DNA from: Rhizophagus irregularis
Lineage: Eukaryota > Glomeromycota > Glomeromycetes > Glomerales > Glomeraceae
Direction: 5' to 3'
Assembly: GCF_026210795.1 (NCBI RefSeq)
Contig: NC_089460.1
Location: 744,001 to 808,000 of the forward strand
Length of the DNA: 64,000 bases
Positions 55,645 through 57,305 of the stretch are shown piece after piece (position 1 is the stretch's first letter; every line of letters starts with the position of its first letter). The position numbers and the translations under genes were made by a program. The notes below the pieces were generated by a model. That model had not been told where the DNA came from. It saw nothing but the letters and a program-made list of their open reading frames with translations, and ran no database searches.

Positions 55645-57305
55645 ATGTCAAGGAAAAATAAACCTAATTTGCGGAGGAGAAATGTCAGTTCGAAGAAAGT
55701 TCCGCAGGAAAGAATAAATCAGATCAATGAAGCTTTTATGAAAAAGAACATACCCGAACTTCGAAAATTAGCAACTACAGGCCCTGGTTTGGTCAATGAT
55801 GGGTTACGACGGTTATGTTGGTAAGTATAACGATTTTTGTAAATAAAAATTGTCGGGTTAATTTATAATTTCAAATTAGGCCATTACTTTTGCATTGCGA
55901 ACCTTACGAACCTTACGATAAGAAAGATCTTCAAGGTTTGAAGTGAATCCCAATTAGATTATTCGAACTATTTATTTCCAATTAAAACTAATTAATGATC
56001 GTTTTTATAGAGGAACATAAAGACGAGCGTCAAGTTCTACTTGATGTAGATCGGTCGTTTGTCTATTATCCTAAAGGTAAATGTTAGTATTTAAATGTTC
56101 GAATTATTCGTCGATCGTCATTTTAATATCATTGCATAACAAGGGCTAAATAATGCTACGAAAAAACATATGCAATCCGAATTGAAAGACGTTATCGTAG
56201 GAATTTTACGGAGGCATCCCAAGCTTGCATATTATCAGGTATGGATTTGATAGCTAACATGCTTGCCATTTATTCAATTACAATCGTTATTAACATAATT
56301 TTATTAGGGATTCCATGATATATGTTCAGTTCTTCTACTTGTATTGGGAAATAAAGAATCTGCTATTAAGGCGGGAGAGAATATTGCTATTTTTTTATTA
56401 AGATATCCTTATTTATATCAAATACATTAATTTGCTACATTTATTTGCGATTCCTTAACTCCGATGAACGGATGCGATGCTCGATTCATTAGAACCTATT
56501 ATGAAGCAACTTACTCTTTTGAACACTTTGATTCGATTGGAAGACCCAGCAATTGCAGATTTTCTTGAAAAGTCAAATACTTTACCGTATTTTTGCCTTA
56601 GTTGGGTTATAACTTGGTGTAGTCATGATGTTCGAGATTTATCGAAAGTTGTTCGTTTATTCGATTTTTTCATCTCATCAGATCCTTTAATTTCAATATA
56701 CTTATCTGCTAGAGTAAGTAATATTAATTATATTAAATTTTTTTGTATAAATTTATTAATGATATATATATAACAACAGATTGTCATTAGCCGTCACAAA
56801 GAATTATTAGCGCTAGAGTGTGATGGTGCAATAGTTCATACATTTTTATCAAAATTTCCTCAGTATATTGATATAGATGAACTAATTTCAAAAACAATTC
56901 AACTGTATAATAAGTACAGAAAGTTCTGCCCTCTTGTACTTAAAAAGGCAATCAATGAAGCGTTGGATGAAACGTACTTATTGTCAATTATCGTTTTTTT
57001 TTTTATTTTTTAAGAAAGAATTTAATTTAATCTTCTTAATATTTATTAGATCCTGTGCCATATTATACGAACAACATTGGCTAAAATTAAAAGTTGACGA
57101 ACCCATCAATTATTTGGCTGTGGATAAGATTCTTTCTTCGCCTTATTCGGCTAAAAAGTCTATGCAAATTAAAAATTCAGAGAAACCAAATATGCTAAAT
57201 AAAAAACGGGTAGTCATGGTGTTAATAAGTGCTACTCTTTTTTATTGGTTATTTAATAAAATTTTAATATCATTCTATGAACGAAACCATAAAATCAATT
57301 ATTAA
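55645..57305 (+). CDS. TBC1D20: TBC1D20/Gyp8-type RabGAP with C-terminal membrane anchor
   Basis: GTPase-activating protein for ER-Golgi Rabs (Rab1/Ypt1 in relatives). Eight exons: 55645-55820, 55880-55935, 56011-56076, 56144-56238, 56308-56402, 56470-56713, 56780-56973 and 57050-57305, total 393 codons; human TBC1D20 is about 403 by memory. Residues show the arginine finger in VLLDVDRSFVYYP and the glutamine finger in AYYQGFHDICS. ALSWLITW-like FCLSWVITWCSHDVRDLSKV and RLFDFFISSDPLISIYLSAR match the TBC1D20 subgroup. The C-terminal VVMVLISATLFYWLFNKIL is a single membrane anchor. The intron between exons 5 and 6 is of the AT-AC U12 type. The donor of the last intron (GTACTT) was chosen because it gives EALDETSCAILYEQHW. 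Confidence 0.88.
56403..56469 (+). other. U12-type AT-AC spliceosomal intron
   Basis: A 67-nt intron within the TBC1D20-like gene. Donor ATATCCTTAT right after AG; branch site TTCCTTAAC at 56451-56459 (perfect match to the minor-spliceosome consensus as I know it); acceptor ends GAAC, 11 nt after the branch A. No GT or AG pair in this interval would keep the frame. Removing it joins LL-R-DAMLDSLEP, matching the family. Confidence 0.88.

Follow-up and report, generated by a model that had tools for sequence, protein, structure and literature searches.

The minor spliceosome has been lost from most of the fungi that have been studied. Among the early-branching fungi, U12-type AT-AC introns have been described in Rhizopus oryzae and Phycomyces blakesleeanus (PMC2846911), and in Rhizophagus irregularis Larue and Roy reported in 2023 a set of 205 minor introns, 0.272% of its introns, along with the four minor snRNAs in full and many proteins of the minor spliceosome (PMC10639083). 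R. oryzae has about 4 minor introns and P. blakesleeanus about 20, numbers exceeded at least tenfold in Rhizophagus, and in R. irregularis genes for vesicle-mediated transport are over-represented amongst those that carry them (PMC10639083).

The intron described here, at 56403-56469 on the + strand of the window (the whole 64,000-nt stretch of DNA that was analysed), comes from the same species and has donor and branch motifs of the kind seen in that set (PMC10639083). Most likely it belongs to the approximately 200 minor introns of this fungus, in which minor splicing is known to operate. The main text of that study does not mention the intron by name, and the string "TBC" does not occur there (PMC10639083); a literature search for TBC1D20 with a U12-type or minor intron returned nothing relevant. 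Given that some 205 minor introns and four snRNAs had already been reported, the intron adds an instance and not a discovery; the importance that the first-pass annotation of this locus had implied for it is not borne out, since minor splicing in R. irregularis has been known from its publication in 2023 (PMC10639083).

The TBC1D20-like host gene and its reading frame

The host gene, a TBC1D20-like RabGAP gene, runs from 55645 to 57305 on the + strand, with exons 1-4 at 55645-55820, 55880-55935, 56011-56076 and 56144-56238 and exons 5-8 at 56308-56402, 56470-56713, 56780-56973 and 57050-57305. Once spliced, these eight exons give 393 codons and a stop, without an internal stop, and the resulting protein of 393 aa contains a RabGAP-TBC domain (PF00566, 2.6e-26). 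Among solved structures the closest relative is human TBC1D20 (PDB 4hl4, E 5.7e-52 over residues 23-288), a member of the same TBC family, with TBC1D17 the next best at 2.8e-10, in keeping with the TBC1D20-like identity first proposed for the gene. A hydrophobic stretch, VVMVLISATLFYWLFNKILISFY, was spotted by eye near the C-terminus of the protein. The other six introns of the gene are all GT-AG.

Removal of 56403-56469 joins exons 5 and 6 in phase 2, the junction reading ...NIAIFLLR|DAMLDSLEPIMKQL..., also given as ...IFLLR|DAMLDSLEP..., and the LRD found at this junction is identical in human TBC1D20. The earlier claim that taking out the intron restores the family reading over eight exons and 393 codons was thus reproduced, with the conserved coding frame regained. 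If the intron is left in, the frame reads LLRYPYLYQIH and then runs into a stop after a few intronic codons. A frame broken in this way by the retained 67 nt is what would be seen if the gene were a pseudogene and the 67 nt an unspliced insertion; it is exceedingly improbable that this is the case, as all eight exons are open, the introns span 59-76 nt, the TBC domain is preserved in full along with the C-terminal segment, and the gene is present as one copy only, at a single locus in the whole genome.

Splice signals of the intron at 56403-56469

The intron (67 nt) reads ATATCCTT...TTCCTTAACTCCGATGAAC. Its 5' splice site, ATATCCTT at 56403..56410, is an exact match to the U12-type donor, its branch site, TTCCTTAAC at 56451..56459, is close to TTCCTTRAY, and its 3' splice site is the AC at 56468..56469. 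The branch adenosine is the second A of TTCCTTAAC, at 56458, and lies 11 nt before the last base of the intron. Donor, branch site and AC acceptor had been said in the first-pass annotation to fit the minor-spliceosome consensus, and all of them do, at the spacing it gave. Taking these motifs together with the gene model, the shuffles and the homology scoring described below, 56403-56469 is almost certainly a genuine minor-spliceosome (U12-type, AT-AC) intron, of phase 2, in a single-copy TBC1D20-like gene of R. irregularis DAOM197198.

The donor octamer RTATCCTT is by itself found at chance level, with 6 occurrences in the window against 6.8 expected, and the signal therefore comes from donor, branch site, spacing, acceptor and reading frame taken together. 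When the motifs were joined in a strict pattern, ATATCCTT-N38..68-TCCTTAAC-N6..12-AC, there was 1 match in the window against 0 in 100 dinucleotide shuffles, and a scan with the pattern found no second AT-AC intron in the 64,000 nt. Across the genome (32 contigs, 146,748,485 bases) the strict pattern gave 9 matches against 0 for the reversed control, and another, partly overlapping pattern gave 10 against 1. A chance origin is ruled out by the window shuffles together with the genome-wide reversed control.

In order to compare the possible splice ends, all introns between exons 5 and 6 that keep the frame were spliced out, and the products were scored against human TBC1D20. The pair 56403-56469 scored 441, the highest among the GT-AG, GC-AG and AT-AC pairs, so that no frame-keeping alternative with recognised splice ends does better than the U12-type AT-AC reading put forward at the outset. 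It would seem very unlikely that the intron is instead a major-spliceosome (U2-type) GT-AG or GC-AG intron and the AT-AC match a coincidence: a few such pairs do keep the frame, for example 56371-56506 (GC-AG) and 56341-56506 (GT-AG), but they remove conserved TBC residues, the best GC-AG and GT-AG products score 415 and 387, there is no GT dinucleotide within 56360-56450, and chance would not be expected to produce the joint U12 motif. A few nonstandard pairs such as TA-TC reached up to 445 and were set aside as products of gap placement or small boundary shifts without recognised splice ends. Neighbouring AT-AC pairs such as 56415-56469 (435) score only slightly lower, a small margin that leaves the exact donor unfixed by homology alone; the exact donor of the AT-AC intron rests on the ATATCCTT motif.

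Minor-spliceosome components and their pairing with the intron

Searches of the genome with Rfam models identified U12 (68.9 bits, cut-off 53), U6atac (79.9 bits, cut-off 33), U4atac (55.0 bits, cut-off 53) and two matches to U11 (71.9 and 55.5 bits, cut-off 39). The named control genomes were those of bacteria and archaea, and they therefore show only that the snRNA matches are not general noise. On C22, two further matches to U6atac were weak (E 0.7, 19.7 bits), fell below the cut-off and were disregarded, and within the window no Rfam family reached its gathering score. The second U11 copy (L007:1501-1627, 55.5 bits) has diverged, with a 3' stem that pairs poorly in the model alignment, and is possibly a pseudogene or a variant. 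A CCCAYAA element is found 54 to 62 bases upstream of the U12, U6atac, U4atac and one of the U11 genes (L001, L002, L005, L006), and is perhaps a common snRNA promoter element.

Amongst the proteins, U11-48K is clearly encoded in the genome: one CHHC zinc finger exceeds the Pfam cut-off (PF05253), and a stretch near to it, LAEQRDYKRRRKSYRAKNIKITQRTPTQV, matches human U11/U12-48K at 4.2e-7, the two together reaching 5.3e-8 against PDB 8r7n_F when joined pieces of neighbouring exons are used as the query. A candidate for PDCD7/59K is weak and below the cut-off (0.014 and 0.034), with a similar C-terminal pattern. The Pfam models for CENATAC (PF14968) and SCNM1 (PF15803) had no match in the genome, a silence which does not show absence. 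A genome with no minor-spliceosome components anywhere, which the first-pass annotation had named as evidence against its reading, is not what was found, as four snRNAs and U11-48K are present.

The donor ATATCCTT can pair with the 5' end of the genome's U11 (UAAAAGGG) and with its U6atac (AAAGGAGAG), the predicted duplexes having energies of -6.4 and -5.4 kcal/mol respectively, and the branch site TTCCTTAAC can pair with GAGUAAGGA of the genome's U12 with one A bulged (predicted duplex -9.1 kcal/mol). In splicing, U11 and later U6atac would pair with ATATCCTT, U12 would pair with TTCCTTAAC and bulge a branch adenosine, and cuts at AT and AC would then remove the intron, with the R codon (AG|G) joined in phase 2. 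The branch-site-recognition stretch of U12 (L001:1501-1664) is GAGUAAGGAUAAU, against GAGUaAGGAAAAU in the Rfam consensus, and as a result the first U of UUCCUUAAC is unable to pair. The base that precedes TCCTTAAC varies in the strict-motif introns of the genome, being T, A, C or G.

Some AT-AC introns are of the U2 type. Both spliceosomes can act, to varying degree, on introns whose ends are unusual (Larue and Roy, PMC10639083), which lends something to the idea that the major spliceosome handles the AT-AC ends seen here; the donor and branch site, however, have the full U12 consensus and are able to pair with U11, U6atac and U12 of this very genome, and we regard this possibility as next to negligible. 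The U12 identity proposed in the first-pass annotation finds good support in the sequence. Its description of the gene as "direct evidence" of U12 splicing is worded too strongly; the observations are of motifs, reading frame, homology, snRNA genes and a capacity for pairing, and from these we infer that transcripts are spliced at this intron.

AT-AC introns elsewhere in the genome

Several of the other AT-AC matches give junction-spanning products with similarity to Pfam families, namely DHHC (1.3e-20), UQ_con (2.9e-12) and MT-A70 (2.6e-14), and those that span conserved domains are genuine genes interrupted by an intron of this type. Another product resembles the DNA polymerase delta N-terminal family weakly, at 1.5e-4, just under the cut-off. 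Others of the matches are open across the junction, some of them giving no family.

With the same strict motifs there are 9 AT-AC matches genome-wide against 3 that are GT-AG. AT-AC thus outnumbers GT-AG among the strict-motif matches of Rhizophagus, unlike the minor introns of human, of which approximately 26% are AT-AC (PMC10639083). Tentatively, the AT-AC share of Rhizophagus minor introns may exceed that found in annotation-based surveys and 56403-56469 may be absent from the published list, a suggestion that we consider rather doubtful; AT-AC ends are seldom permitted by gene predictors, which could account for such an absence.

Judged by its motifs, the intron at 56403-56469 is a clean, full-consensus case of a minor-spliceosome intron in an early-branching fungus, and it serves to recall that genes of this kind will be mis-annotated by predictors that lack AT-AC models.
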